Shown here in pieces: positions 18,867-59,502 of a stretch of DNA of 64,000 bases; position 1 is the stretch's first letter; the number at the start of each line of letters is the position of its first letter. Source of the stretch: Bacillota bacterium (GTDB taxonomy: Bacteria > Bacillota > Sulfobacillia > DUMF01); NCBI GenBank assembly GCA_012840015.1, contig DUMF01000015.1, forward strand, positions 1 to 64,000, written 5' to 3'. Under the pieces are notes generated by a model. That model was given only the letters and a program-made list of their open reading frames with translations, did not search any database and was not told the DNA's origin. The position numbers and the translations under genes are program-made.

Positions 18867-19487
18867 TTAGTGAGCCCTTACTATATCCTTGATTTTCATC
18901 AGTCGCGACGCGTTGGACCGTTCAATTTCCGCAAGCCTCATCTCGATACTGTTCACTGTTGACTCCAATTCAGGTATCAGCACGTACTCAAGAGCATTCA
19001 CGCGCCGCCGTGTCTTTTCGATTTCCCCTGCTAGCACTTCGACGGTACGCTCCATCTCAGCCAGCTTGATAAAGTCCGGCATGAGCGCGCTGAAATTGGC
19101 GAGTGCTTCGTCCAATTCGGCGGAAGTATCCGCCAGCCCGTATGAGTAGATGTTGCCCTTCTGTACTGCTTCCAGAACCGGTATCTCGGCGTTCATGATG
19201 GTGCGTGTTCCTGCCTTGAGCTCAAGCTTTGCAGTAGGGGACATCAAAGCTTCCTCCAGCACCTGAGGGTCCATTGTAGACCTCGCAACCAGGAAGCTGG
19301 AGTAAGCAGCACTGAGCTTCTCTTCCACTCTTTGTCTCAGCTGCCTGTTGTCCTTCAACAGCTGCATGAAGATGCGCATCAGCTCGTCGCGCTTATCCTT
19401 AAGAAGCTTATGTCCCCTCTTCGCCATCCGGAACCTGTTCTTGAGCCGCATCAGCTCTTGGCGGGTGGCGTTCACTCGTATTTCCAT
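18867..19487 (-). CDS. ntpD: V-type ATPase subunit D
   Basis: The 206-residue protein is a long antiparallel coiled coil (VNATRQELMRLKNRFRMAKR at the start, MRLAEIERSNASRLMKIKDI at the end), the central shaft that turns inside the A3B3 head. It overlaps the subunit B stop by one base and is the last gene of the operon before the terminator. Confidence 0.96.
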   Translation of the reverse strand: MEIRVNATRQELMRLKNRFRMAKRGHKLLKDKRDELMRIFMQLLKDNRQLRQRVEEKLSAAYSSFLVARSTMDPQVLEEALMSPTAKLELKAGTRTIMNAEIPVLEAVQKGNIYSYGLADTSAELDEALANFSALMPDFIKLAEMERTVEVLAGEIEKTRRRVNALEYVLIPELESTVNSIEMRLAEIERSNASRLMKIKDIVRAH

Positions 19488-20899
19488 TAGGCCGTGGCCT
19501 CCTTAGCTGAAGCCTCGTCTTTCTTCGGCAGGTACTTCTCCGCCATCTTGTCGGAGATTCTCTTGAGTTCGGTGCGCGGTACCAGCGTCAGTAATTCCCA
19601 CCCTATGTCCAGGGTCTGTTCGATGGTTCTATTCTCGTTCTCCCCTTGCTTCACGAACCGTGCCTCAAACTCATCCGCGAACTTGAGGAACTTCTTGTCC
19701 GCTGGCGTAAGTGCAGCTTCGCCGAGCACTACCGCGAGCTCCCGCGCTTCCTTGCCCCTATCGTAAGCGTCGGATAGTTGGTTCAGTACCTCCGCGTGGT
19801 CTTCCCTCGTCTTGCCCGGTCCGATACCTTTATCCTTCAACCTCGAGAGCGAAAGCGACACGTTAATCGGCGGGTAAATGCCCTTCTTATGCAACTCCCT
19901 GCTCAACACGATCTGACCCTCGGTAATATACCCCGTGAGGTCCGGAATGGGATGCGTCTTGTCGTCTTCGGGCATAGTCAAAATGGGGATCTGTGTGATG
20001 GACCCATTCTTGCCCTTTATGCGGCCGGCTCGTTCGTAAATCGTAGCCAGGTCAGTATACATGTAGCCAGGGTATCCGCGCCGTCCAGGCACTTCCTTTC
20101 TGGCTGCAGACACTTCACGCAGAGCCTCGCAGTAGTTAGTCATGTCCGTCAGAATGACGAGCACATGCATTTCTTTCTGGAACGCCAGGAACTCCGCCAC
20201 CGTCAAGGCCATCCTCGGAGTAGCAATTCGCTCGATGACGGGGTCATTGGCCAGGTTGACGAACACTACGGCCCTTTCGATGGCCCCGGTCTTCCGGAAA
20301 TCCGAAATGAAGTAATCTGCTTCTTCAAATGTGATGCCCATCGCGGCGAATACCACTGCGAACTTTTCGCCCTTGCCTCTCACCTGCGCCTGGCGGGCAA
20401 TCTGTGCAGCTATCTGCGGATGCGGTAGACCTGCGCCAGAGAAGATCGGCAGCTTTTGGCCTCTGACCAACGGGTTCATGCAGTCTATAGCGGAAATACC
20501 TGTCTGGATGAACTCCGACGGATAGGCACGAGCGTAAGGATTCAATGGGCTCCCTGTTATTTCCAGCCGGGCTTCGGGGATGATCCGCGGCCCACCGTCT
20601 ATCGGGTGACCGAAACCATCGAATACGCGGCCCAGCATATCACCGGAGACGGGCAACTCGACTACCCGCCCTAAGAACCTGACACGGCTCTGAGTGACAT
20701 CCATGCCCCTCGTTCCTTCGAAGAGCTGCACTAGTGCTCTGCCTTTATGAGCCTCCAGCACTTGCCCCCGCCGGACCTGTCCATTTGGTAGCTCCACTTC
20801 CACGAGCTCGTTATATTGCACCTGGTCCACGTTCTCCACGAAAATGAGCGGGCCAGACACTTCCGATATGGTCCTGTACTCCTTCAGCAATTCCTTCAC
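19487..20899 (-). CDS. ntpB: V-type ATPase subunit B (non-catalytic)
   Basis: The 470-residue protein begins [17 protein letters not shown] and carries the B-subunit nucleotide region [20 protein letters not shown] in place of a true P-loop, plus the [20 protein letters not shown] segment. Three copies alternate with A subunits in the head. It lies 12 bases after ntpA. Confidence 0.97.
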
Positions 20900-20911
20900 C
20901 CCCTTACGCTC

Positions 20912-22663
20912 TTAGCTCGCTTTGGGCATTTGCCGTACTACTTCTGCCTCAATGTCGTCGATGCTGTCTACCTGGTCTTCCGGTATGAACCGGGCCCTCG
21001 CGATCCTCTCACGCACGGGTAGCTCTAAGATTTGATCCAGCCTGGCTCCACCCTCCAGTGCCTCCAAGGCTACCTCATGGAAGCGAAGGATCAGCTTTAA
21101 AAGCTTATACTGTTTCCTCATCGAGCAGTAAGTGTCGACCTCATGAAATGCGCTCTGGTACAGGAAGTCTTCTCTCAACGACTTGGCTGTCTCTAGCGTA
21201 AGCCTTTGTTGAGGCGAAAGCGCATCTATGCCCACCAGACGAACGATCTCCTGAAGTTCCGCTTCCTGCTGCAACAGGCTCATCGCTTTTTCACGCAGCT
21301 TTGGATAATCCGAACCCACCTGCTTCTCGAAATACTCACCCAGCCGATCTGCGTAAAGCGAGTAACTCGTCAACCAGTTTATCGCGGGGAAATGTTTCCG
21401 CGCTGCCAACCTATCATCCAAGCCCCAGAAGGCCTTTACGATCCTGAGGGTGGATTGGGTTACTGGTTCGGAGAGGTCGCCTCCCGGAGGCGATACAGCC
21501 CCCACCGCGCTGAGTGCGCCTTCTCTCCTATCCGAGCCCAGGCATACTACCCGGCCGGCCCTTTCGTAGAACTCTGCAAGCCGTGAGCCCAGGTAGGCGG
21601 GATATCCTTCTTCGCCCGGCATTTCCTCCAACCGACCCGAAATCTCGCGCAGTGCCTCAGCCCAACGCGAGGTCGAGTCGGCCATCAAGGCCACCGTGTA
21701 ACCCATGTCCCTGTAATACTCCGCGATCGTAATGCCCGTATAGATCGATGCCTCTCTAGCGGCCACGGGCATATTCGAAGTATTCGCCACCAGCACCGTG
21801 CGCTTCATCAAGGGCTCGCCGCTGCGTGGGTCTTTCAACTCCGGGAACTCGATCAACACGTCCGTCATCTCGTTCCCGCGCTCGCCGCACCCGATGAACA
21901 CGATGATGTCTACGTCCGACCACTTGGAAAGCTGGTGCTGGATCACCGTTTTGCCGCTTCCAAACGGCCCAGGCACGCAGGCCGTACCGCCCTTCGCGAT
22001 CGGGAAGAAAGTATCGATTACCCGCTGACCGGTGATCATCGGTGCGACAGGAGGAAGCTTTTCCTTGAAAGGCCTCGGCCTACGCACCGGCCATCTCTGG
22101 ACCATTTTGATCTCCTGCAGCACCCCGTCAGCTTCCACTACGGCCACAGTATCGTCAACCGTGAATTGCCCCTTCTCGATTCGCTTCACCACACCGGGTT
22201 TAGCGTCCGGAGGCACCATCACCTTATGCTTAACCAAGACTGTCTCCTGAACCGTACCGATCTCGTCACCCGGCTCAACTCGTGCGCCCTCAGCCACGCT
22301 CGGCGTGAATTCCCACTTCTTCTCATGGTCCAGGCCCGGCACGTCTATCCCTCTGGTGATAAAATCACCGGCAATCTGGTTAACCAACTGAAGCGGCCTC
22401 TGTATACCGTCGAAGATCGAGCCCATCAGCCCCGGTCCCAACTCGACGCTCAAAGGAAGTCCGGTGCTCACCACCGGCTCCCCAGGACCAAGGCCGGAGG
22501 TCTCCTCGTAAACCTGAATCGAAGCTTTATCGCCCTTGAGCTCTATGATTTCTCCGATCAGTTTACGCGTACCAACACGCACTACATCGTACATCTTCGC
22601 GTCTGCCATACCTTCGGCTACAACCAGAGGGCCGGACACTTTCACGATGCTACCTTGTTTCAT
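20912..22663 (-). CDS. ntpA: V-type ATPase catalytic subunit A
   Basis: From ATG 22663 the protein has 583 residues and begins [19 protein letters not shown]. The Walker A motif GPFGSGKT is near residues 232-239, followed by [12 protein letters not shown]. The insert of V/A-type A subunits (about 110-200) is present, separating it from F-type beta. It hydrolyses or makes ATP. A longer frame to 22696 lies inside subunit F and lacks homology. The start overlaps the subunit F stop. Confidence 0.97.
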
Positions 22664-23000
22664 GCTCTCGTCCCTCTTCCCTGAATAGGATGTCAACTCC
22701 TATGGCTTTTTCTACGTACTCCTTCATTCTCTTAAGACCGATACCCAGCCTTTGCCTGTTATCGGGTATCACCGCAACGGTAATCCCCGTCCTCTCGGTC
22801 AGATCCTTGAGCTCCGGATTCAAGGCCAGAGCCAGCTTTTCCGTGATATATATCACTGCGCATCCCTGCTTCTTGGCATCAGCCAATGCCGCCAGAGCCT
22901 GTTCCCGCGTTTCCGCAGGATAAGTAACAAAACCGACCGATTTGAAGGCAAGCACTGAGTCACGGTTACCAATTACGGCTAAACTAGGCATAGACATCAC
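22650..23000 (-). CDS. ntpG: V-type ATPase subunit F
   Basis: The 116-residue protein has the subunit F Rossmann-like fold ([36 protein letters not shown]). It binds the central shaft and completes the stalk; in Enterococcus hirae the equivalent gene is ntpG. It overlaps subunit C by 17 bases and subunit A by 14, indicating coupled translation. Confidence 0.94.
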
Positions 23001-24023
23001 GTAGCCTTTCGCGGATCATATCCCCTGGCAGGCCATTGAGTTTTCCAGTGAGTATGATCCTTAAATTCTTGATCTCGGTTTCCTTGGCTACGGCATAAGC
23101 TACTATCGGTTCGGGCCCGAACGCCAGATGTCTCCCTCTCTGAATGAGCCCGGCCAAGTAACTGTCAGCCCACTTTTCCAGTTCCGTAAACGCGATCGAA
23201 CCCTTTTCGGTTTTCACGAATTTGGATAAGGCTTCACTATAGGGAGAGCGAGCCCAGAACTCCAACCATTCTTCGATTCCTTCACCGGCCACTGCCTTTA
23301 AGCTCTCGATGCTCACCTTGCCCCCGGGTATCAAGGCTAGCTGCAGCTTGTTCTTATCCATCCCGAGCTTCGAGCCCCTGAGGCTTATCTTCATATTGGC
23401 GATGTCCACCGCGGCTTTTACCCAATCCTGCAACACTTCTCTACCACTCGCTCGCGCCAACGCCACCCTCGTCTGGTGGTAGCATTTGTCCGCAATCAAA
23501 TCTATCAACTGCGGATCCTCTCGAACGCTAGGCTCTCTAAGCACTTCTTTTATGCATTCGAGAAGGCCCTCCGGTAACGTTTTTGACCGTATCTCAGTCG
23601 CACCTTCGATGGCTGCACTAACAACCGAGCTCATCACATCCACCGGAGTAGTGCCCCAATCGTAAAGTGCACCGGGGTTTGGCTCGAAGTTCAAGAGCTT
23701 CGCTTTGAGCACGACCTTCAAATTATGAAAGTCGAACCTGAGCCGGAGCAGGTCCAACACAAAGCTATCGGGCATAAAGCTGGCCAGATAGTCGTATACC
23801 CACTTCAGATGTGCGGTAAGCCCCTTCTCGAAATCATACACATCCCCAGCCTCACTGGCAGACTCCGCATACTCTGTTTCCATTAGGATATTGAAAGCTG
23901 CCTGAGCGCTCTCCGCGTCAACCATCCTTTGAAGGGTAGCCCTATCGAGCAAGTGCGTCTCGAGAACCCTGACGCGAGCAACTGCGTAGATGTACTCATG
24001 TTCATCCCTAGGCACTGCTACGC

Positions 24024-24027
<4 letters not shown>
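22984..24027 (-). CDS. ntpC: V-type ATPase subunit C (AC39-type)
   Basis: This 347-residue, largely helical protein (YIYAVARVRVLETHLLDR at the start, TEIKNLRIILTGKLNGLPGD near the end) is the funnel-shaped subunit that joins the central shaft to the membrane ring. The start overlaps the subunit E stop by 4 bases. Confidence 0.94.
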
Positions 24028-25219
<1,192 letters not shown>

Positions 25220-25241
25220 TTATACCTCCATTTCTTCTTAG

Positions 25242-27224
25242 TTACTCCTCTTCGACTGTAATGTATTTGTTATCAACCTTGAACGGTTGAAACCCTTTTC
25301 CTTGACCCTCAAAAAACTTGGTAAAGAACTCGACGAACTGAAGCCTGCCGGAGTGGATGAAGCTACCCAGCACGTTAATGAGCAGGTTGAACACGTGTCC
25401 ACCGGCCAAAACCACCACGGCGAAAATCCAGCCAAGAATCGGTATACCTTTACCCAACAGCGCGATTTGGTTGATAACATTCCCGATAACGCCCGTGGCC
25501 AGGCCCAAAGCCAATAGCCGCATATAGGACAGTGTATCGCTCAGGTAACCTACACCTCCGTACAGCCCGTAAAGACCGGTGAAGGGCTTCAACAGGATGT
25601 TTTTCTGAGCCCTGCTCGAAGCCACTACAACCCAAATGGCTCCCAGGATAACCAAGTATTTGGCTATCGTCGTACCGATCACAGTGCCAACGGCCGAAGT
25701 AACGGCGAACAGCGCCACACTTGCGATCAGAACGAGCCAGCCGCCCTGGTCCAGCACAGCGTCTTTGACTGCCCCGGCCTTTATCCCGCTCAGCATCTTT
25801 AGCAGGATACCGAACCATATTTGGATCACGCCAAGGGCTAGGCAAATGACGAGGAGTTTCAACGGGTCGTTCATCGGGTCCAGCACGAAAAACCGCTGCT
25901 TGAACTCCCTCAGACCAGGTACCGCAAGCACGTCGAATAAGTTCCCGAACCAGCCACCCATCATGGCTCCGAAAACTATAGTGGAAACGGCACCATATGC
26001 CAGCAGGCGGAAAAGCTTCTTCCCGCTCGGCGCCATCTCCACCTTTTTCAGGAAGTAGATGCTGGCCAGGAGGAGCATAATCCCATATCCGGCGTCGCTA
26101 AGCGCAAGCCCGAAGTAGATCGTGAAGAACGGTGCCAGAAGCGGTGTTGGATCTACCTCGTCGTAACCGGGGAAGCCGTATATGTTCGTGACCACTTCGA
26201 AAGGCTCCAACCATTTACTGTTCTCCAGAATGATCGGCACTCTATCGCCCGGCTGAGGGTCTTCTGCCAGTACTTCAATATCAGTACTTATTTCCGCCAG
26301 CCTGCTCTTCAACTGGTCTACCTGACTTGCCTTAATCCAACCGCCCAGTGCGAAGGCCTCGCGTGTCCCGAGGAATCGCCCCTGTGCCTGCTTTCTGGCC
26401 AAAGCTGCCGCATAGTGGTCGGAAAGCACAAGGAGGCTACGCCGGTGTTGCAGCACTGAACGGCCTTCCTCTTCAATCCGCTTCTCTTCTTCCCTCAGTT
26501 CGCTCAATTGCCTTTGACAACTCTCGACGATATCACTTGGCTTACCCTTCAGGTCTCCGAAGCTCACCCGGTTTATCTCGGCCGATCTCATCCCATCAGC
26601 GGCGTCTTCGTCGTCCTTGAAGTAAGCCGCCAGGAAGAAGACGGTCTTCCCTTCTTCAGCCACTTTCTCGAGAGCAACTGCATGTTCTTCACAAGCTAGC
26701 TTCAGCTTCTCGAATTTTGAGACGTGGGCAGTGAATGGTACCACTTCCACACCGTGAGTTGCATATGGAAGCAGTTCCACAGGGATATCCATCTGTACCC
26801 ATGGCGACACGAGTTCCAGTTGTGACTCCAATCGGGCTGCCTGATTCCGGATATCGGACAACCGGGCCTCCATTTCGGAGATATGCCGGTATACTCCCTC
26901 GAGATCGAATCCCTCCAATATCTCTCGATACTCGCTAAGAGGCACGTGAATCTTGGCCCCAGTGAAGCTTTCGATAAAGCCCTTTGCAGGTTTGCCGTAC
27001 GCAGAATCGAGATATTTGAGGCAGTAGTTGACCTTATACGATTTAGCCTCGAGGTCAGGGTCATCGACGCCTGCCAGAGCGTACTTGCTGGCGTCTTCAT
27101 CGGAGAGGTTCGATCGGAGATCAACCAACTGTACTGCGGAAAGATCTTGAAGGGTCTCAACGACCTTTTCGCGAACGGAGTTATGGCCAACCACGGTTAC
27201 TTTCTTCATCCGTGCAACTGCCAT
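25242..27224 (-). CDS. ntpI: V-type ATPase subunit I (stator membrane subunit)
   Basis: The 660-residue protein has a cytoplasmic half with coiled coils (about 80-130 and 215-300) and a membrane half of about seven helices (from LAPFFTIYFGLALSDAGYG near residue 365 to the end). It forms the ion half-channels against the K ring and anchors the peripheral stalks. It follows the small H subunit without a gap. Confidence 0.95.
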   Translation of the reverse strand: MAVARMKKVTVVGHNSVREKVVETLQDLSAVQLVDLRSNLSDEDASKYALAGVDDPDLEAKSYKVNYCLKYLDSAYGKPAKGFIESFTGAKIHVPLSEYREILEGFDLEGVYRHISEMEARLSDIRNQAARLESQLELVSPWVQMDIPVELLPYATHGVEVVPFTAHVSKFEKLKLACEEHAVALEKVAEEGKTVFFLAAYFKDDEDAADGMRSAEINRVSFGDLKGKPSDIVESCQRQLSELREEEKRIEEEGRSVLQHRRSLLVLSDHYAAALARKQAQGRFLGTREAFALGGWIKASQVDQLKSRLAEISTDIEVLAEDPQPGDRVPIILENSKWLEPFEVVTNIYGFPGYDEVDPTPLLAPFFTIYFGLALSDAGYGIMLLLASIYFLKKVEMAPSGKKLFRLLAYGAVSTIVFGAMMGGWFGNLFDVLAVPGLREFKQRFFVLDPMNDPLKLLVICLALGVIQIWFGILLKMLSGIKAGAVKDAVLDQGGWLVLIASVALFAVTSAVGTVIGTTIAKYLVILGAIWVVVASSRAQKNILLKPFTGLYGLYGGVGYLSDTLSYMRLLALGLATGVIGNVINQIALLGKGIPILGWIFAVVVLAGGHVFNLLINVLGSFIHSGRLQFVEFFTKFFEGQGKGFQPFKVDNKYITVEEE

Positions 27225-47140: not shown

Positions 47141-47398
47141 CTAACCCCCTGCAGACGGAGGTATGAATGACACTACCGCGTCTGGAGGAACATCGGTCTC
47201 AAGGCCTTGCAAAAACGCGATGTTCCTCCCGTTTACAAGGATTGACACTCCTTCGTGGAGCTTCTCCCTGAACCCTGGGAACTGCTTCTCCAGCTCAGCG
47301 AGCAGTTCCTTCACACTCCACGTCCCAACATGCTCGAGTTCAACCGAGCTCCTGCCTCCAAGTGCGCCCCTTAGAGTGGAGAAGACCTGTACTCTCAT
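47141..47398 (-). CDS. MoaD/ThiS-like sulfur carrier protein
   Basis: This 85-residue beta-grasp protein ends in GG (FIPPSAGG), the C-terminus needed for thiocarboxylate formation. MoaD-type proteins supply the dithiolene sulfur of molybdopterin or tungstopterin. It overlaps the AOR gene stop as ATGA, so it probably serves the pterin cofactor of that enzyme. Confidence 0.9.
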
Positions 47399-49203
47399 GC
47401 AAGCCCCAGGCGCTCCAAGGTTGCCTCCAGCGGCACGCCTTCGTCGCTCCAGCCGCGTAACTTGTAGTATTCAGGGAGCATCTCGCCCAATTTCACGACT
47501 AACCCCTTTGCTGGCCCCTCGGGCATGGGCTCGTTCAACAGCCTGGGCGCGAGAGTATCCTTGTCTGCCAGGATTCCTGCAGCGAGGTTAAATAACCTCT
47601 CCAGGTTCCAGACGCGCTCTCCGACCTCGAGCACTCGCTCCACCGTATAGTCTATCCCCGTGGCGTACTTCAACATATCTGCAAGCTCGGGGGCGCCTAT
47701 CGCAAACGTGGTGAACAAGCAAATCCCTGCCGAGTCCACTGCCGCGGTAAGGTCCTGGAAGGTCTTGGTCCACGCCGCTTTGTCTTTGGTGGTCAACGGG
47801 TCCAGTTTTTGGGGCGAACCCAGTATTTCGGGAGAAATCATGTAGCCCCTCACATGGCAGCCGCCTCGGTTCGAGGTGGCATAGTTCAGGCCAATTCCTT
47901 GCGCACCCCGGGGATCGTACGCTGGATACTCTTGTGCCTTGGTGGACATAGAGAGCTCCGGATGCCCAAGCTCAGAGGCCATTCTGTACGAGCCCTCTGC
48001 CAGCAGGTCACCAAGCCCTTCACGGCGGGCGGTAAGCTCGGTCGCCTTCACCAGCATCTCGCCGTCTCCCCACTTCAACTCCATACCCGCCTGTTCGCGG
48101 CTTAAGTAGCCTTTCTCATACAGCTCTATGGCACAGGCGAGCGTGGACCCGAGGGAAATCGGATCGAGGCCCAGCTCGTTGCACAGATGGTTAGCGCGCG
48201 TCACGGCAGCTAAGTCGTAGATGCCGCAGTCAGCGCCCAAAGCCCAGGCAGCTTCGTATTCAGGGCCTTCGCCGCTGCTCTTGTACTTGCCCGAAGGAAT
48301 GACCGTGGCCCGGCCACAGGAAATGGGACAGCTGAAGCAGGCCTTCTTTCTCACGAGGAACGTCTCCGCAAGCTTCTCTCCGCTGATGTCGTTTGCCCTT
48401 TCGAATATTCCGGTCCTGAAATTAAAGGTCGGGAAGATGCCGTGAGCGTTGATGACGTTCACGAGGAGGGCAGTGCCGTACGCCGGTAAACCGACGCCTG
48501 TGGTGGCATTGGGCTTGACCTTGTTCTTGAGAATGTCGAGCACGGTGTCACGGAAAGCTTTCATTTCAGCCACCTTTATACCGCCCGTACCGCGAACCAC
48601 GATAGCCTTGAGCTTCTTGGAGCCCATAACCGCGCCCACGCCCGAGCGTCCCGCCGCCCGGTTTTTGTCATTGACGATGCACGCAATCCTCACGAGTTTT
48701 TCTCCTGCAGGGCCGATGGAGAGCACCTTCGCGTCCGGATCCGTTTCACCCCTTAGGATGTCTTCTGTCTCGTGAGTACTCTTCCCCCAAAGGTGCGCCG
48801 CACTTCGAATCTCAGCGTGACCATCTTCTACCCATAGATAAACAGGCGCTTCCGAAGCCCCTTCGACGATTATCCCATCGAATCCCGCGAATTTAAGCTC
48901 AGGGCCCCAATATCCGCCCGAGTTTGAAGCAGCAATCGTTCCGGTGAGCGGCGACTTCGTAACCGCGTTGTACCTGCTCGCGCTGATGGCTCCCGTTCCC
49001 GTGAGGGCGCCGGTAAACAATAGCAGCTTGTTTTTAGGGCTAAGCGCGTCTGTTTGGGGAGGTACCTCATCGTATAAGATTTTGGAGGCTAAGCCCCGGG
49101 CACCGAGGAACTTCTCGGCCAGACCGCTGTCGAGCTTTTCTACGCTGATCTTACCCTTTGTCAAGTCAACCCGAAGTACCTGTCCAATCCAACCAAACAT
49201 CAC
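47395..49203 (-). CDS. aor: Aldehyde:ferredoxin oxidoreductase (tungstopterin enzyme)
   Basis: The 602-residue protein has the AOR N-terminal domain ([56 protein letters not shown]) and the [4Fe-4S] cysteines CFSCPISC near residue 290 with a later Cys in [10 protein letters not shown]. It oxidises aldehydes to acids, or the reverse, with ferredoxin, using a bis-tungstopterin. It overlaps the ferredoxin gene upstream and moaD downstream, forming one operon. Confidence 0.95.
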
Positions 49204-49682
49204 ACGCGCACCTCCTTCAGCGCGTCCTTCAGCCTGTTGGCGACTTGCCTCTTCTTAGCTACTGCAGCCTGATCCGCTTCCACGTACTCTATGGCGTTCC
49301 AGGGACAGAACAGAGCACACTCGGGCTCTCCGTCACACAGATCGCACTTGACCAGTTTCTTCTCCTCAGGAATATAGGAAATGGCACCGAACGGGCACGA
49401 CAGCATGCACATCCTGCATCCGACACATTTGGCCTCTTCTATAGCGACGGCGCCGGTTTTTTCATCTCTGGAGATCGCACCGGCGGGGCAAATCTCCATG
49501 CAGACGGGTTGATCACACTGCTGACACACGAGGGGCATGTAAAAATTCTCATCCAAAAAAGCGGCGACACTCACCCGGGATCTGGCTGGATTGAATTCGC
49601 CCGTATGTTTCGCCGAGCAAACCAGCTCACACCTCCGGCATGCGGTACACTTCTCCGGGTTTATCATGAGTATCTTCTCCAA
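49200..49682 (-). CDS. Polyferredoxin-type electron-transfer subunit of AOR
   Basis: The 160-residue protein has sixteen or so cysteines in four ferredoxin-like groups ([49 protein letters not shown]), enough for four [4Fe-4S] clusters as in HycB/DmsB-like subunits. It overlaps the AOR start by four bases and so should accept its electrons. The start is TTG at 49682 behind GGAGGGGGG. Confidence 0.92.
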
Positions 49683-52314: not shown

Positions 52315-53701
52315 GTGGGATATCCTCAAATTGGCCTATCGAAACCTGTGGCGGAGAAAGGGTCGGACTATACTCACCACGCTGGGTGTGGTAATCGGCA
52401 CCGCATCCATAGTGGTGATGCTCTCCCTAGGGCTGGCCATAACCGAGAACCAACGCAAGAACATGGAGCGCTGGGGCAATTTGAATATCGTTAGGGTTAT
52501 GGCAGGGATGCGCTTCGACGACAAGGGGCAGCCAATCGGTGCGGGTAAACCCCTTAACGACGAGGCCGTGGCTGAGATCAGGTCAATGCAAGGCGTAGTC
52601 GCGGTATCCCCGGCCTACGTATTCGGTGGCGAGGTGAGGATGGAGCGCAAGAGAGGTTACATCCAGCTGGTGGGGATCGATCCTTCACAGATGCAGGCTC
52701 TAGAATTCAAGCTCAGTCAAGGGCGCTACATCACGCCCGAGGACAAAAACGCCATAATCATTGGATATCGTGTGGGGAATAACCTCAGGGACGAAAGAGA
52801 ATTGCGCAGAATGATGGCCTCGAAAGGCCGTGCAATATCGACAAAAATAATGTCTGTCAGCAGGCCCCAACCAGTCGAACCGGCGGAGCTATTGGGAAAG
52901 CGTCTCTCACTTCTGTCCAGTCCCTCCGAGGGGAATCCAATGGACGTCAGACCACTCGTTAACTTGGAAGTAGTGGGCGTTTTGGATGAGAAAGACATGC
53001 AGAGAGCTTACGAAGCGTATTGCAGTATCGATGAGCTCAAGCAGATCAAGAAAATGTTTGAAAAAACCATGCAACCCGCACAGAAGTCAGGCATACCTCG
53101 TCAACGAAATGACCCCAATCAGCCCGGTCCCGATGATTATCAGTACATAATGGTTCGTGCGAGTGACGTTGGGGAAGCGAAGAGACTCTCCGACGCACTG
53201 AAGAGAGCAGGGTATAATGCCTGGTCCATGGCGGACTCTCTGGAAGGTATCGAGAAGCAAACGCGCACTATGCGCGCCATCCTCGGCGGTATTGGGGGGA
53301 TCTCGCTCTTCGTAGCGGCACTGGGAATCGCCAATACAATGGTGATGTCCATATACGAGCGCACCCGTGAAATCGGCATTATGAAGGTGATAGGCGCTGC
53401 GGTAGCGGACATAAGGATACTCTTCCTGTCCGAAGCTTCCCTGATAGGGTTGATTGGCGGCACCTTAGGGGTAGGACTGAGCTACGTCATCTCCTATGTG
53501 ATGAACGACCTCGGTTTGCGCTTCATCGGGATGCCCGGGCCTGCCGGCCCGGGAGAAAAGATCATGGTGTCACTCATCCCACCATGGTTAGCCATAGCCG
53601 CGCTTGGCTTCGCCATCGCAGTGGGGCTCATCTCGGGCGTCTACCCCGCCAATCGTGCCGCACGGCTGCGACCCGTGAAAGCTATTCGCATGGATTATTG
53701 A
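52307..53701 (+). CDS. ABC transporter permease, MacB/FtsX type
   Basis: The protein (464 residues from ATG 52307, MNKWDILKLAYRNLWRRKGR) has one N-terminal membrane helix (TILTTLGVVIGTASIVVMLS), a large extracytoplasmic domain (about 55-320) and three C-terminal helices with the FtsX-type YERTREIGIMKVIGA. It works by mechanotransmission rather than classical transport. An in-frame ATG at 52286 is possible. Its stop overlaps the convergent hydEF stop by seven bases. Confidence 0.93.
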   Translation: MNKWDILKLAYRNLWRRKGRTILTTLGVVIGTASIVVMLSLGLAITENQRKNMERWGNLNIVRVMAGMRFDDKGQPIGAGKPLNDEAVAEIRSMQGVVAVSPAYVFGGEVRMERKRGYIQLVGIDPSQMQALEFKLSQGRYITPEDKNAIIIGYRVGNNLRDERELRRMMASKGRAISTKIMSVSRPQPVEPAELLGKRLSLLSSPSEGNPMDVRPLVNLEVVGVLDEKDMQRAYEAYCSIDELKQIKKMFEKTMQPAQKSGIPRQRNDPNQPGPDDYQYIMVRASDVGEAKRLSDALKRAGYNAWSMADSLEGIEKQTRTMRAILGGIGGISLFVAALGIANTMVMSIYERTREIGIMKVIGAAVADIRILFLSEASLIGLIGGTLGVGLSYVISYVMNDLGLRFIGMPGPAGPGEKIMVSLIPPWLAIAALGFAIAVGLISGVYPANRAARLRPVKAIRMDY

Positions 53702-56004
53702 TTGTTGAGTTCAGCATTGAAAGGCCTCAGCGCCCTGTCGAAGATCCCATGCAGATAGGCAATGAGCACGCCATAGTTAACTATGGGGACTCCAGCACGA
53801 GTCACCGCGTTCAGCCGGGAAAGCATCGCCTTGCGATTGAGCATGCATGCCCCACAATGCACCACTAATTTATATTGCTGCAGATCCTGTGGAAAATCGC
53901 GCCCGGAGCACCACGAGAAGGATAACGCCCCGCCCACCTTCCGGTTCAACCAGGTAGGGATTTTCTTCCGTCCAATGTCATCTCCTATGGGGTGGTGAGT
54001 ACACGCTTCTGCAATCAGCACTCTGTCTCCTGCTTTCAGTCCAGCCACTGCCTGAGCGCCCTTCACGAGAGTGGCCAGATCCCCTTTATGGCGTGCGAAA
54101 AGGATAGAAAAAGATGTCAAAGGCACCTCTTCGGGGACGATTCGAGATACCTTTCCAAAAGCCTGTGAATCCGTCACCACCAGACGTGGTTTTTGCGCTG
54201 CTGCCTCTAAGGTACTCAGCACTCGTTCGAGGCCATCTTCCTTCGTCACGGTAGCCACTGCACCTGCATCGAGAATGTCCCTGAGAGCCTGCACCTGAGG
54301 CAGAATCAACCGCCCTTTGGGCGCTTCTAAATCGATCGGTACGACCATCACCACCAGATCTCCCGGCTGCAACATGTCCCTCAGCAAAGGCGGCCCCTCG
54401 TAGTCGGGAGGGCAAAGCTCGATCAGGCGCCGTTTCAGCTCGTCTATCCCGCTTCGATCCCGGTTACTCACTTCGATGACAGGCACCCCGAGCTTCGATT
54501 CGATACCTTTCAGTTCAGCAGGAGACAACCGGACTAAGTCGCTCTTGGTGACCACCGCTAGCAAGGGAAGTTTCTTTTCACGGGCTAGCTCTGCCAGCTT
54601 GAGTTCGTATTCCCCCACACCGCGGACGGGATCCACGACCAAGATGGGTAGGTCCGTGGCATCGAGTATGTCGAAGGTGCGTTTGACACGCATCTCTCCC
54701 AACGCACCCACGTCGTCAATCCCCGCTGTATCTACGAGCACAACGGGACCGATAGGTAGGATCTCCATCGTCTTGAACACGGGGTCGGTGGTAGTCCCTG
54801 GCACGTCCGACACTATGGCTACCCCTTGACCGGCCAGCGCATTAATGAGGCTGGACTTGCCAGCATTTCGGCGCCCGAATACTGCTATATGCAACCGCTC
54901 CCCCCTGGGCGTCGAACTTAGCGAGGCCACGCCTGGTGCCCATGGTCCAGGTTTGGGAGAATGGCCCGGCGTGGCCTCCACAGTACGTCCAAGTCCCGCA
55001 GCCATCCGCTGCATGGTTTCCCAAGCTTCCTGGGGAAGCGCTGCGTTAGATGCCTTGCCGGGGTATATTTCGTATAATGCCGCAAACCGGTGCGGGGTTA
55101 CTGCGGGCATGATCACGTTGGCGCCACACCGTAGGGCCTTCAATCTCCCCTCCGGGTCCAGAGTAGCCAGCGCGGTGGTCCCCGGTAAGTGACAGTACGG
55201 CAACAAGAGGCGGGCGATCGCGAGCACGCGCAGGCTGAGATCGACCTCTCCAGCAGGTTGATCGTGCAAAGGCGTGTCTTCGTGTGGCACGAACGGGCCT
55301 ATGCCTGCCATTTCCACGTCGAGACGTTTCAGCAGAACGAGATCTGCGGCAAGCGAGTCAAGGCTCTGGCCCGGCAACCCTACGATGTTCCCCGAGCCCA
55401 CTTGATAGCCCAGTGCCCGTAAGTCCTGCAGGCACTTCAGCCTGCTTTCCAGAGTGCAGCCGGGCCTAAGCTTCTCGAACAACTCCCTGTCCGAAGTTTC
55501 GTACTTGAGAAGGTATCTGTCCGCCCCCGCTTCTTTTAAGGCGCGCAACTCATCGAACGGCCTTTCTCCCAAGCTCAGGGTGACTGCGATATCCTTCCCA
55601 AGCCGTGCTGCACCCCGCTTTATTGACCGGATCACGTCCGCTAAGGTGGCTGCATCGTAGTAAGGGTCTTCCCCCGATTGTAGCACCACCGTGCGGAAAC
55701 CAACCTCGACGGCAGCCAAAGCCGCCTGCACTATCTCTTCTGGTTTCATACGGTACCTGGCAAGCTTCCTGTTGGAAACTCTCAGGCCGCAATACAGGCA
55801 ATCTCGCACGCAACAGTTGGAAAATTCGACAACGGCCCGCAAGTGGATGCCGTCACCCACATATTGCCGTCTTACGTCGTCCGCTTTTAGGAAAAGCACT
55901 TCGCGTTCGGCGCTTCCTTCGCTGCGCCGCAACGCTTCGGCCACAAGTCGTTCCAACTGCGCCCAATCGGTACTGCGGGTAAGCTGATCTAACAACTCCA
56001 GCAT
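53695..56004 (-). CDS. hydEF: HydE-HydF fusion, FeFe-hydrogenase H-cluster maturation
   Basis: This 769-residue protein joins two maturases usually encoded separately. Residues 1-340 are HydE, a radical SAM enzyme with C65-VRD-C69-LY-C72 for the [4Fe-4S] cluster, GEDPYYD and GNIVGLPGQ. A Pro-rich linker (343-368) leads to HydF: Walker A GRRNAGKS (377-384), VPGTTTDPVF, VDTAGIDD, TKSD, and C-terminal cluster ligands CTH-x45-HCGAC. HydF is the scaffold on which the 2Fe subcluster is built. The reading frame is continuous. It follows hydG by 35 bases. No hydrogenase gene lies in the window. Confidence 0.95.
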   Translation of the reverse strand: MLELLDQLTRSTDWAQLERLVAEALRRSEGSAEREVLFLKADDVRRQYVGDGIHLRAVVEFSNCCVRDCLYCGLRVSNRKLARYRMKPEEIVQAALAAVEVGFRTVVLQSGEDPYYDAATLADVIRSIKRGAARLGKDIAVTLSLGERPFDELRALKEAGADRYLLKYETSDRELFEKLRPGCTLESRLKCLQDLRALGYQVGSGNIVGLPGQSLDSLAADLVLLKRLDVEMAGIGPFVPHEDTPLHDQPAGEVDLSLRVLAIARLLLPYCHLPGTTALATLDPEGRLKALRCGANVIMPAVTPHRFAALYEIYPGKASNAALPQEAWETMQRMAAGLGRTVEATPGHSPKPGPWAPGVASLSSTPRGERLHIAVFGRRNAGKSSLINALAGQGVAIVSDVPGTTTDPVFKTMEILPIGPVVLVDTAGIDDVGALGEMRVKRTFDILDATDLPILVVDPVRGVGEYELKLAELAREKKLPLLAVVTKSDLVRLSPAELKGIESKLGVPVIEVSNRDRSGIDELKRRLIELCPPDYEGPPLLRDMLQPGDLVVMVVPIDLEAPKGRLILPQVQALRDILDAGAVATVTKEDGLERVLSTLEAAAQKPRLVVTDSQAFGKVSRIVPEEVPLTSFSILFARHKGDLATLVKGAQAVAGLKAGDRVLIAEACTHHPIGDDIGRKKIPTWLNRKVGGALSFSWCSGRDFPQDLQQYKLVVHCGACMLNRKAMLSRLNAVTRAGVPIVNYGVLIAYLHGIFDRALRPFNAELNNQ

Positions 56005-56039: not shown

Positions 56040-57428
56040 TCAAAAGTACAAATCCCGCTCCCCGGCCTCCAGGCGTTTAAGCCTGCGAAGTGTCTCGCTC
56101 CTGACCTCCTCGTTGGGAATCTCGGCCACGTGTTGTTCGATAGCCTGTTCGCCGATGCGCCGAGTTTCCGGTTCGGCATAATCTAAGAGGTACTCTTTGA
56201 ACGTGAGGATGGCGTTGGGCTGGCATAGCTCCTGAATCCGGCCTGTTTTCGCCAATGACATGAACCTGTCCCCGGTGCGTCCCCTCCTGTAGCATGCCGT
56301 GCAAAAACTGGGCAGGTAGCCCGATTGAGTGATGCTCCTCACTATTTCGTCCGGGCTCCTTCTATCCTCAACTGCAAATTGCGGCGAGCTCTCCTCCTCC
56401 GGTTCCTCGGGGAGCTCCCGATGATACCCTCCGACTCCCGTGCAGGAACCCGCGCTGATCTGGGATATGCCTAAGCGGAAGACCTCATCGCGGAAGCCCG
56501 GTTTCTCCCTGGTCGAAAGAATCATACCGGTGTACGGAACAGCTAACCTGGTGATAGCCACCACCTTCTTGAAATCGTCGTCCTTGACCAGGTAGGGAAA
56601 TTGACTCATGTCAATACCCTCTGCGGGCCTTAGCCGCGGAAAAGAAATCGTGTGAGGACCTACCCCGAATCGCGCTTCCAGATGCTTGGCGTGCATCACG
56701 CAGGCCACCACTTCGTACTTGTAATCGTAGAGACCGAAAAGCACGCCGATACCCACGTCGTCGATGCCTGCTGCCATCGCTCTATCCATAGCGGTAGTAT
56801 GCCAGTCGTAGTCTGCCTTGGGCCCGGAGTGAAGCTGGCGGTATGTGTCCCTGTGGTAAGTCTCCTGGAACAGGACGTAGGTGCCTATACCCGCCTCCTT
56901 CAACTTCTTGTAGTTCTCCACAGTGGTGGCGGCGATGTTCACATTCACCCTGCGGATCTCACCACGCCCCGAGCGGGTTTCGTAGATAGTGTGGATTACG
57001 TCCAGGATGTAGTCTATCGGGCAGTTCACCGGGTCTTCCCCGGCCTCCAGAGCGATTCTCTTGTGCCCCATGTCCTCCAGGATTGAAACCTGCTCCCTGA
57101 CTTCGTCCAGCGTAAGTTTCCTCCGGTTGAAGCGGTTGTCTCTCCTGTAGCCGCAGTACTTACAGTTGTTGACGCAAAAATCGCTCACGTAAAGGGGGGC
57201 GAAGAAGACCAACCGCTTGCCGTAGATCTGTTTCTTGATTTGTGAGGCCGCCTCGAATATTTCTGATAGTAAATCAGGGTCATCCACGTGAAGTAGGGCG
57301 GCAACTTCGTTTGGTTCGAGCCCCTTGCATTCCCGGGCCTTGGCGATGATATCGCGTATGCCAGTGGGAGATACTGCGCGGGAGTCCTCCAGTGCGGAAA
57401 AAATCGCTTCGTCGTCGATGAAGTTCAT
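56040..57428 (-). CDS. hydG: HydG, tyrosine lyase of FeFe-hydrogenase maturation
   Basis: The 462-residue radical SAM enzyme makes the CO- and CN-bearing iron synthon from tyrosine. Both cluster motifs are present: C85-VNN-C89-KY-C92 for SAM, and the C-terminal CTAC...C (FCTACYRRGRTGDRFMSLAK and a later LCQPN) for the auxiliary cluster that distinguishes HydG from ThiH. The ATG lies behind AGGAGGG. hydEF follows on the same transcript, and the sufC/sufB pair is divergent. Confidence 0.97.
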   Translation of the reverse strand: MNFIDDEAIFSALEDSRAVSPTGIRDIIAKARECKGLEPNEVAALLHVDDPDLLSEIFEAASQIKKQIYGKRLVFFAPLYVSDFCVNNCKYCGYRRDNRFNRRKLTLDEVREQVSILEDMGHKRIALEAGEDPVNCPIDYILDVIHTIYETRSGRGEIRRVNVNIAATTVENYKKLKEAGIGTYVLFQETYHRDTYRQLHSGPKADYDWHTTAMDRAMAAGIDDVGIGVLFGLYDYKYEVVACVMHAKHLEARFGVGPHTISFPRLRPAEGIDMSQFPYLVKDDDFKKVVAITRLAVPYTGMILSTREKPGFRDEVFRLGISQISAGSCTGVGGYHRELPEEPEEESSPQFAVEDRRSPDEIVRSITQSGYLPSFCTACYRRGRTGDRFMSLAKTGRIQELCQPNAILTFKEYLLDYAEPETRRIGEQAIEQHVAEIPNEEVRSETLRRLKRLEAGERDLYF

Positions 57429-57530: not shown

Positions 57531-58268
57531 ATGAGCCTTTTCGAATTGAAGGACCTGGTAGTCGAAGTCAACGGCAATACGGTCCTGAAGGGAGTCAACC
57601 TTAAAATCGGTCAGGGTGAGACGCACGTGTTGTTCGGCCCCAATGGATCCGGCAAGACCACGCTGATCATGAGTGCCCTTGGGTTCCCAAAGTATAGGGT
57701 GGTCTCGGGTCAAATCCTATTCAAGGGGAAGGACATTTCCGGAATGAGTTTGGACCAGAGAATCCGGCTCGGCATGGGCATAGCCTTTCAGAGGCCTCCG
57801 GTCGTGCCCGGAGTGAAGTTGCGACAGCTAGCCGAAATGATTGCGCGAACTGATGGGGCGAAATTGCAGAGGGTGGCCGAAGACCTCAACGCCCTGCACC
57901 TTTTGGACAGGGATCTGAACGACGGCTTCTCCGGGGGCGAAGCTAAACGCTCGGAGCTGCTGCAGTTGCAAATGGCCAGCCCCGACCTGGCCTTCATCGA
58001 TGAACCGGAGTCAGGCGTAGACCTCGAAAGCATAGCCATCGTAGGCAGGGCCATAAATGCAATCCTCGGCAAGACCAGGGTCAAAGCTGGCAGAACCGCT
58101 TCCGCCCTCATCGTGACTCATACGGCTCACATCCTCGATTACGTCAATGCGGAGCTCGGTCATGTTCTGGTGGACGGCAGGATCGTGTGTTCAGGCAACC
58201 CGCGGGACATATTGCGGGAAGTGAGGGAGCATGGGTTCAAACACTGCGAGGTGTGCACGAATGAATGA
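57531..58268 (+). CDS. sufC: SufC-like Fe-S assembly ATPase
   Basis: From ATG 57531 the protein has 245 residues with Walker A FGPNGSGKTT, signature FSGGEAKRSELLQL and Walker B LAFIDEPESGVDLES, the SufC form. It should power the SufB-like scaffold encoded next. A longer frame from 57429 covers the promoter and is not real. Only sufC and sufB are present: no sufD, sufS or sufU. Confidence 0.92.
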   Translation: MSLFELKDLVVEVNGNTVLKGVNLKIGQGETHVLFGPNGSGKTTLIMSALGFPKYRVVSGQILFKGKDISGMSLDQRIRLGMGIAFQRPPVVPGVKLRQLAEMIARTDGAKLQRVAEDLNALHLLDRDLNDGFSGGEAKRSELLQLQMASPDLAFIDEPESGVDLESIAIVGRAINAILGKTRVKAGRTASALIVTHTAHILDYVNAELGHVLVDGRIVCSGNPRDILREVREHGFKHCEVCTNE

Positions 58269-59502
58269 CAGATTACGGGAGCTGGAACAGAAGGCTTTAT
58301 CAGCGGTAGAGAAAAGGGCTGCCTACGGTCCAGACATCGACCTGAACCGCTATCGAAACGTGGGGGAGCACGAAAAAATAGAGGCGCTGGAATCACTTTC
58401 CCGGCAGGCCAGGGAAGCCGCGTATATGGCAGGTATCGAGCAGAACCTCGAGCGCACGGCAGGAACGTACATGCAACTGGATAGTTCCGTCGTGTTCGAG
58501 CAGGTGCAACGAGCTTATGGCGGGCAGTTAGAGCTCCTCTCCACAGACGAAGCCCTTGCCAAATACGACGGCCTTCCAGAATATTGGTGGCAGGCTGTTC
58601 CGGTGGATCAGGACAAATACACTGCACGGGTTGCTTTAAACCAGACTCATGGCTATTTCATCAGGGTACTACCAGGTCAGAAGGTAGAAAGGCCGGTTCA
58701 GGCGTGCCTCCTCGTCGCAGAAAACTTTATCAGCCAGAACGTACATAACGTGATCGTGGTAGAAGAAGGCGCCGAAGTTCAAGTGATCACCGGTTGTACC
58801 TCCATAACCGGAGTTAAGGAAGGACTACACATAGGCGTGAGTGAGTTTTACGTGAAACGCGGCGCTCGCCTCACTTTCCACATGATCCATAACTGGGCAG
58901 AAAACTTCCATGTGAGACCGCGTACAGGCGTTATAGTGGAAGAAGGAGGGGTGTTCGTAAACAACTACGTCCTCGTGAAGCCTGTAGGCTCTCTACAAAC
59001 GTCCCCCAGCGTCTACCTCAGGGGAAAAGCTTCCCGAGCAGAGATCAATACAATAGCGTATGGCATGAAGCGCTCTGTGATAGACATAGGCTCCAGGATC
59101 GTACTGGAGGCACAAGACACCGCAGGAGAATCTATCTCCAGAGCCGTTGCGGACGACGGCTCCATACTCTACCTTAGAGGGATGTTGGTAGGCAAGACGG
59201 ACAAGCGGGCAAAAGCCCACCTCGACTGCCGCGGAATCTTAAAATCACCCCTGGCGAGAATCGTAGCCATTCCAGAGCTAGACGCTGATTCTTCGCCGGA
59301 GTGCGATCTGGCCCACGAAGCAGCCGTAGGCCCAATAGACCAAGAAGCCATCCTCTACCTGATGGCGCGGGGCCTAACGGAAGATGAGGCAGTAGCCACT
59401 ATCACCAGGGGGTTCATGAACATCGAGCTACCTGGATTGCCGGAAGCTCTCAGGCGCCAGATAGACCAGGTCATGGAGGCCACCCTGCATCGCGGCCTCT
59501 AG
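58261..59502 (+). CDS. sufB: SufB/SufD-like Fe-S cluster scaffold
   Basis: The protein (413 residues from ATG 58261) has a polar N-terminus and the long right-handed beta-helix core of SufB/SufD (NVIVVEEGAEVQVITGCTSI, HMIHNWAENFHVRPRTGVIV, AKAHLDCRGI), ending with the EAILYLMARGLTEDEAVATI helix. It overlaps sufC by eight bases. The two-gene SufC-SufB layout corresponds to the minimal SMS-type system of anaerobic bacteria and archaea. Its place beside hydG-hydEF suggests it may supply clusters to those enzymes, but that is inference. Confidence 0.9.
   Translation: MNDRLRELEQKALSAVEKRAAYGPDIDLNRYRNVGEHEKIEALESLSRQAREAAYMAGIEQNLERTAGTYMQLDSSVVFEQVQRAYGGQLELLSTDEALAKYDGLPEYWWQAVPVDQDKYTARVALNQTHGYFIRVLPGQKVERPVQACLLVAENFISQNVHNVIVVEEGAEVQVITGCTSITGVKEGLHIGVSEFYVKRGARLTFHMIHNWAENFHVRPRTGVIVEEGGVFVNNYVLVKPVGSLQTSPSVYLRGKASRAEINTIAYGMKRSVIDIGSRIVLEAQDTAGESISRAVADDGSILYLRGMLVGKTDKRAKAHLDCRGILKSPLARIVAIPELDADSSPECDLAHEAAVGPIDQEAILYLMARGLTEDEAVATITRGFMNIELPGLPEALRRQIDQVMEATLHRGL

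Follow-up and report, generated by a model that had tools for sequence, protein, structure and literature searches.

Does a single uncultured bacterium encode the hydrogenase maturases HydE and HydF as one protein, a fusion previously reported from green algae, or does the draft assembly merely make two neighbouring genes look joined? In the route to the H-cluster, the HydG synthon passes to HydE and the resulting diiron precursor to HydF, which holds it while the dithiomethylamine bridge is added with the aminomethyl H-protein (PMC12752695). The gene in question lies in a 64,000-nucleotide stretch of DNA from a Bacillota genome (hereafter the window). We conclude, with a probability of about 0.8, that it is a genuine in-frame hydE-hydF fusion confined to one Bacillota lineage, produced by loss of the boundary between adjacent genes. 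That it is a real bacterial instance of an already known architecture we hold at least as firmly, pending reads.

A complete HydE and a complete HydF in one frame

The preliminary description had claimed that a 769-codon frame joins a complete HydE to a complete HydF, and both the open reading frame analysis (ATG start, TAA stop, no stop inside) and the domain matches bear this out. Residues 23-345 match TIGR03956 (HydE, 323.1 bits against a cut-off of 254.6) and residues 365-759 match TIGR03918 (HydF, 555.2 bits against 325.6), both being full-length NCBIfam equivalog matches over their curated cut-offs, and a chance origin of the domain matches is excluded by the E-values. Along the protein the Pfam domains follow in the order Radical_SAM, MMR_HSR1, HydF_dimer and HydF_tetramer, and each half can be aligned over almost its whole length with solved HydE or HydF structures.

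The motifs described earlier were also found where they had been placed. In an alignment with relatives that reads through their stops, C65, C69 and C72 of the CxxxCxxC motif are invariant, and the P-loop (377-384), C668-x-H670 and H716-C717-x-x-C720 are conserved; the C-terminal cysteines for an accessory cluster are absent from the HydE part. The first half is thus a HydE by score and by CxxxCxxC, and the second a HydF by score, by its GTPase, dimerisation and tetramerisation domains, by its P-loop and by its CxH...HCxxC ligands, while the fused HydEF architecture, with both domains in one unbroken frame, is present at the level of the consensus sequence. The other two reading frames show no homology across the junction.

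An AlphaFold2 model (mean pLDDT 85, pTM 0.54) was built from an 11-row alignment in which the relatives' adjacent genes were read through their stops, purely as an alignment device. It predicts two confident folds linked by a disordered stretch, with a mutual placement of the domains that is not reliable.

Table 1. Position and properties of the fused gene, its parts and hydG in the window.
Feature	Position	Strand	Properties
hydEF fusion gene	53695..56004	-	769 codons plus stop
HydE part, residues 1-350	54955..56004	-	CxxxCxxC at 65-72; ends in native C-terminal tail GHSPKPG
HydF part, residues 365-769	53698..54912	-	GTPase, dimerisation and Fe-S (tetramerisation) domains
Junction, residues 351-366	54907..54954	-	predicted disordered (pLDDT < 50); about 10 residues without counterpart in separate HydE/HydF
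GTG codon 359	54928..54930	-	plausible former HydF start; inside hairpin arm
Perfect 11-bp inverted repeat GAGGCCACGCC / GGCGTGGCCTC	54923..54978	-	34-base loop; GC-rich; spans codons 343-361
AGGGGGGAGCGG-TTG, codons 367-371	54892..54906	-	candidate start site for free HydF within the frame; pairing -10.2 kcal/mol
hydG	56040..57428	-	TIGR03955, 653 bits; same strand as hydEF and 35 bases upstream of it

The junction and the possibility of an assembly error

The junction reads TVEATPGHSPKPG-PWAPGVASLS-STPRGERLHI. In relatives a conserved HydE tail, for example TVAQGQGHSPKPGF..., is followed by a stop and then by a HydF start such as MQTTPRG...; GHSPKPG is part of that conserved tail, so that residues up to about 351 are native HydE, and STPRGERLHI is the usual HydF N-terminus. 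What had been called a short Pro-rich linker is therefore mostly native HydE tail rather than a new Pro-rich insert, although some ten residues are indeed new. The spacing from HydE to HydF is 36 nt here, against 43-46 nt in the separate genes of L062, L080 and L116, and 43-50 nt when relatives with overlapping genes are included (L062, L080, L116, L070 and L073). The native tail of one protein and the native head of the other thus share one frame and lie nearly as far apart as in separate genes, which argues for a real fusion. Loss of the boundary would have taken a small indel, or loss of the stop or start, in the roughly 36-base spacer.

The former boundary may still be recognisable. Beside the GTG at codon 359, frame +1 contains a TAA at about codon 362, probably the arrangement from which the fusion arose, and also what an assembly indel would hide. 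The alternative to be weighed is an assembly or base-calling artefact, in which an indel of one or two bases within the hairpin merged two separate, overlapping genes. The perfect GC-rich inverted repeat sits exactly at the junction, and a single indel within it would restore two overlapping genes, the second of which, starting at the GTG, would begin MASLSSTPRGER..., like normal HydF N-termini. Moreover, the fusion is known from one draft genome only, in which no 16S rRNA gene was detected, and it was seen in no other genome searched.

Several observations speak against such an error. Pairing of the Shine-Dalgarno region of GTG 359 with the 16S 3' end reaches only -3.0 kcal/mol, while 31 genes of the window have a median of -9.8 kcal/mol and most of them pair strongly; HydF is therefore probably no longer started there, and an old start without a usable ribosome-binding site counts in favour of a real fusion. 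HydE tail and HydF head continue in frame with no evident break. The lack of a detectable 16S is itself typical of short-read metagenome assemblies, in whose consensus indels should be rare, and this too counts for a real fusion. Taken with the many relatives that are one stop codon away from the fused state, this leaves an artefact quite unlikely.

A repeat as long as the one at the junction was reached in 4 of 2000 composition shuffles, and in ten relatives the inverted repeat at this place is at most 8 bp. The surrounding 171 nt fold with no more than moderate stability (z -1.9 against dinucleotide shuffles). The idea that the linker is a mobile element or a repeated palindrome was rejected, since the inverted repeat occurs in a single copy in the genome.

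Separate genes in the Bacillota relatives

Searches with the full protein covered the 101 nearest genomes, the class with its 154 genomes, 399 Bacillota sampled evenly (231 of them with a match at the chosen threshold) and two further classes of the phylum, with 98 and 17 genomes. The search was made again with a profile. In all, about 620 distinct Bacillota genomes were covered, which include no member of the source's order or family. A scan of GTDB contigs added 80 named loci, a few of them outside Bacillota.

This search for single matches spanning both domains, which the preliminary description had proposed, recovered, among the matches listed, an unbroken fusion from the source genome only. 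No other HydE and HydF in one stop-free frame appeared among the matches listed from the approximately 620 genomes and the 80 loci, where spanning matches sort to the top and the sample outside Bacillota is small. Every Bacillota relative examined carries hydE and hydF as separate genes. In about 19 Bacillota genomes among the matches listed (loci L123-L134, L141, L152-L154, L162, L165 and L171), however, hydF follows hydE directly and shares its reading frame, so that a single match spans both, interrupted by one or a few stops and in most cases by a single stop codon. Readthrough or loss of the stop codon in such pairs would yield HydEF.

Long open frames in nine further genomes (G173, G401, G156, G241, G301, G510, G059, G263 and G512) were inspected as candidate fusions and rejected, all being separate genes. 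A plasmid search revealed no fusion, its annotated records containing separate genes or HydF alone; phyla other than Bacillota were covered by this search and by the contig scan. The open-licence literature searched describes no bacterial HydE-HydF fusion and mentions the fusion for algae only; the 'HYDEF' of Thermotoga neapolitana (PMC7039931) appears to stand for a biotin synthetase and a small GTP-binding protein that are annotated as two proteins.

A probable local and independent origin

In trees of HydE, HydF and HydG, built almost entirely from Bacillota loci and without algal rows, the source sequences lie on long end branches with no supported close sister, and the nearest rows for both halves and for HydG are Bacillota. 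The HydF part is nearest to G187 and family f96 (62-64% identity), HydG is nearest to family f96, and the best identity of the HydE part is 57% in the tree and 63% in G045. The separate, adjacent hydE and hydF genes of Bacillota, for example at the Dethiobacter-like loci L038, L040, L124 and L152, encode the same proteins (52-58% identical), show the same E-then-F order and are often in the same frame; they differ in the stop codon between the genes and usually also in a Shine-Dalgarno sequence and an ATG.

The green algal HYDEF of Chlamydomonas, Volvox and Tetraselmis likewise has an N-terminal HydE, a C-terminal HydF and a separate HydG (PMC3897525, PMC8003979, PMC12924338), a shared domain order that might point to an ancient fusion held in common with the algae, or donated to or from them. 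The gene described here, in contrast, is bacterial, has no intron, adjoins hydG in an apparent operon, and at its junction carries the native bacterial tail of HydE followed by about 10 residues. That Bacillota-type tail, the unfused state of all Bacillota relatives searched and the affinity of both halves and HydG to Bacillota (in trees without algae) all speak against a link with the algae, as do the report that algal HYDEF linkers share no common motif and the argument that the algal fusion originated within algae (PMC3897525). We regard such a link as extremely improbable.

Of the two origins left open by the preliminary description, an independent or an ancestral bacterial fusion, the first is favoured, and as a recent event, because all Bacillota relatives examined are unfused and both halves are Bacillota-like. 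The locus is best and most simply read as a Bacillota hydE-hydF pair that lost its gene boundary independently and within one lineage. This points to a HydEF architecture able to evolve more than once, in support of the domain-fusion argument for a physical partnership of HydE and HydF.

What the fused protein may do

The earlier statement that hydG is kept separate holds, TIGR03955 matching a gene of its own. No second hydE, hydF or hydG was found elsewhere in the genome, which is 96% complete and has four genes matching the [FeFe]-hydrogenase large domain (contigs C27 and C4) as well as two gcvH (GcvH) genes. With a sole hydE and hydF beside these genes, the fused gene has to do the work unless the assembly lacks some genes.

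By analogy with the known biochemistry of the families, the HydE domain would convert HydG's Fe(CO)2CN-cysteine synthon into the [Fe2(SH)2(CO)4(CN)2] precursor, which the HydF domain, on a disordered linker of about 16 residues, would hold during addition of the dithiomethylamine bridge before loading the apo-hydrogenase. The fusion would keep HydE beside HydF and might, as the preliminary description proposed, hard-wire transfer of the HydE product; if HydF acts as a dimer or tetramer, several HydE domains might surround one scaffold. Against a gain from tethering, codon-optimised algal HydEF with HydG only equalled separate clostridial HydE, HydF and HydG in maturing a clostridial hydrogenase in one report (PMC2847965, data not shown there). 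HydF's GTPase activity reportedly drives the protein off HydE and HydG (PMC7450098). A natural bacterial fusion, unable to dissociate fully from HydE, would offer a simple test of the need for GTP-driven release and of direct hand-over of the HydE product to HydF.

Tethering may be partial, however, if the real fused frame also, or mainly, yields free HydF from the TTG at codon 371, after AGGGGGGAG. The pairing at this site is stronger than at the same site in any of 123 relatives (best -9.8, median -3.7 kcal/mol). The site was noticed post hoc, TTG is a weak start, and initiation at 371 would drop TPRGER, HydF residues conserved in relatives. Among the 923 internal codons of the window's genes that resemble starts, 25 pair as strongly; internal initiation is thus at most a lead rather than a finding, and production of free HydF is rather unlikely. 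Improbable as a whole is the most far-reaching proposal, namely a first bacterial HydEF, independent of the algal one, in which the tether takes the place of a binding and release of HydE and HydF under GTP control, and free HydF is tuned through the start at codon 371. The locus looks like a natural test case without new machinery, an apparently recent local joining of neighbouring genes.

Other genes were also noted. Divergent from hydG lie a SufC-like and a SufB/SmsB-like gene (57531-59499, plus strand), both below the curated model cut-offs, which would form a minimal Fe-S assembly pair adjoining the H-cluster maturases. An aldehyde ferredoxin oxidoreductase-like gene (47395-49682, minus strand) has a gene for a ferredoxin-type Fe-S protein directly upstream, and a V/A-type ATP synthase gene cluster was recognised by eye at 18867-27224 (minus strand). 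On contig C4 of G000, inspection by eye identified tandem hydrogenase-like genes (L119 and L120), one for a 670-aa HydA that follows a NuoF-like subunit, the other for a HydA-like protein of 600 aa that carries ferredoxin motifs at its N-terminus; a gene resembling a SpoIIE-type phosphatase follows the latter.
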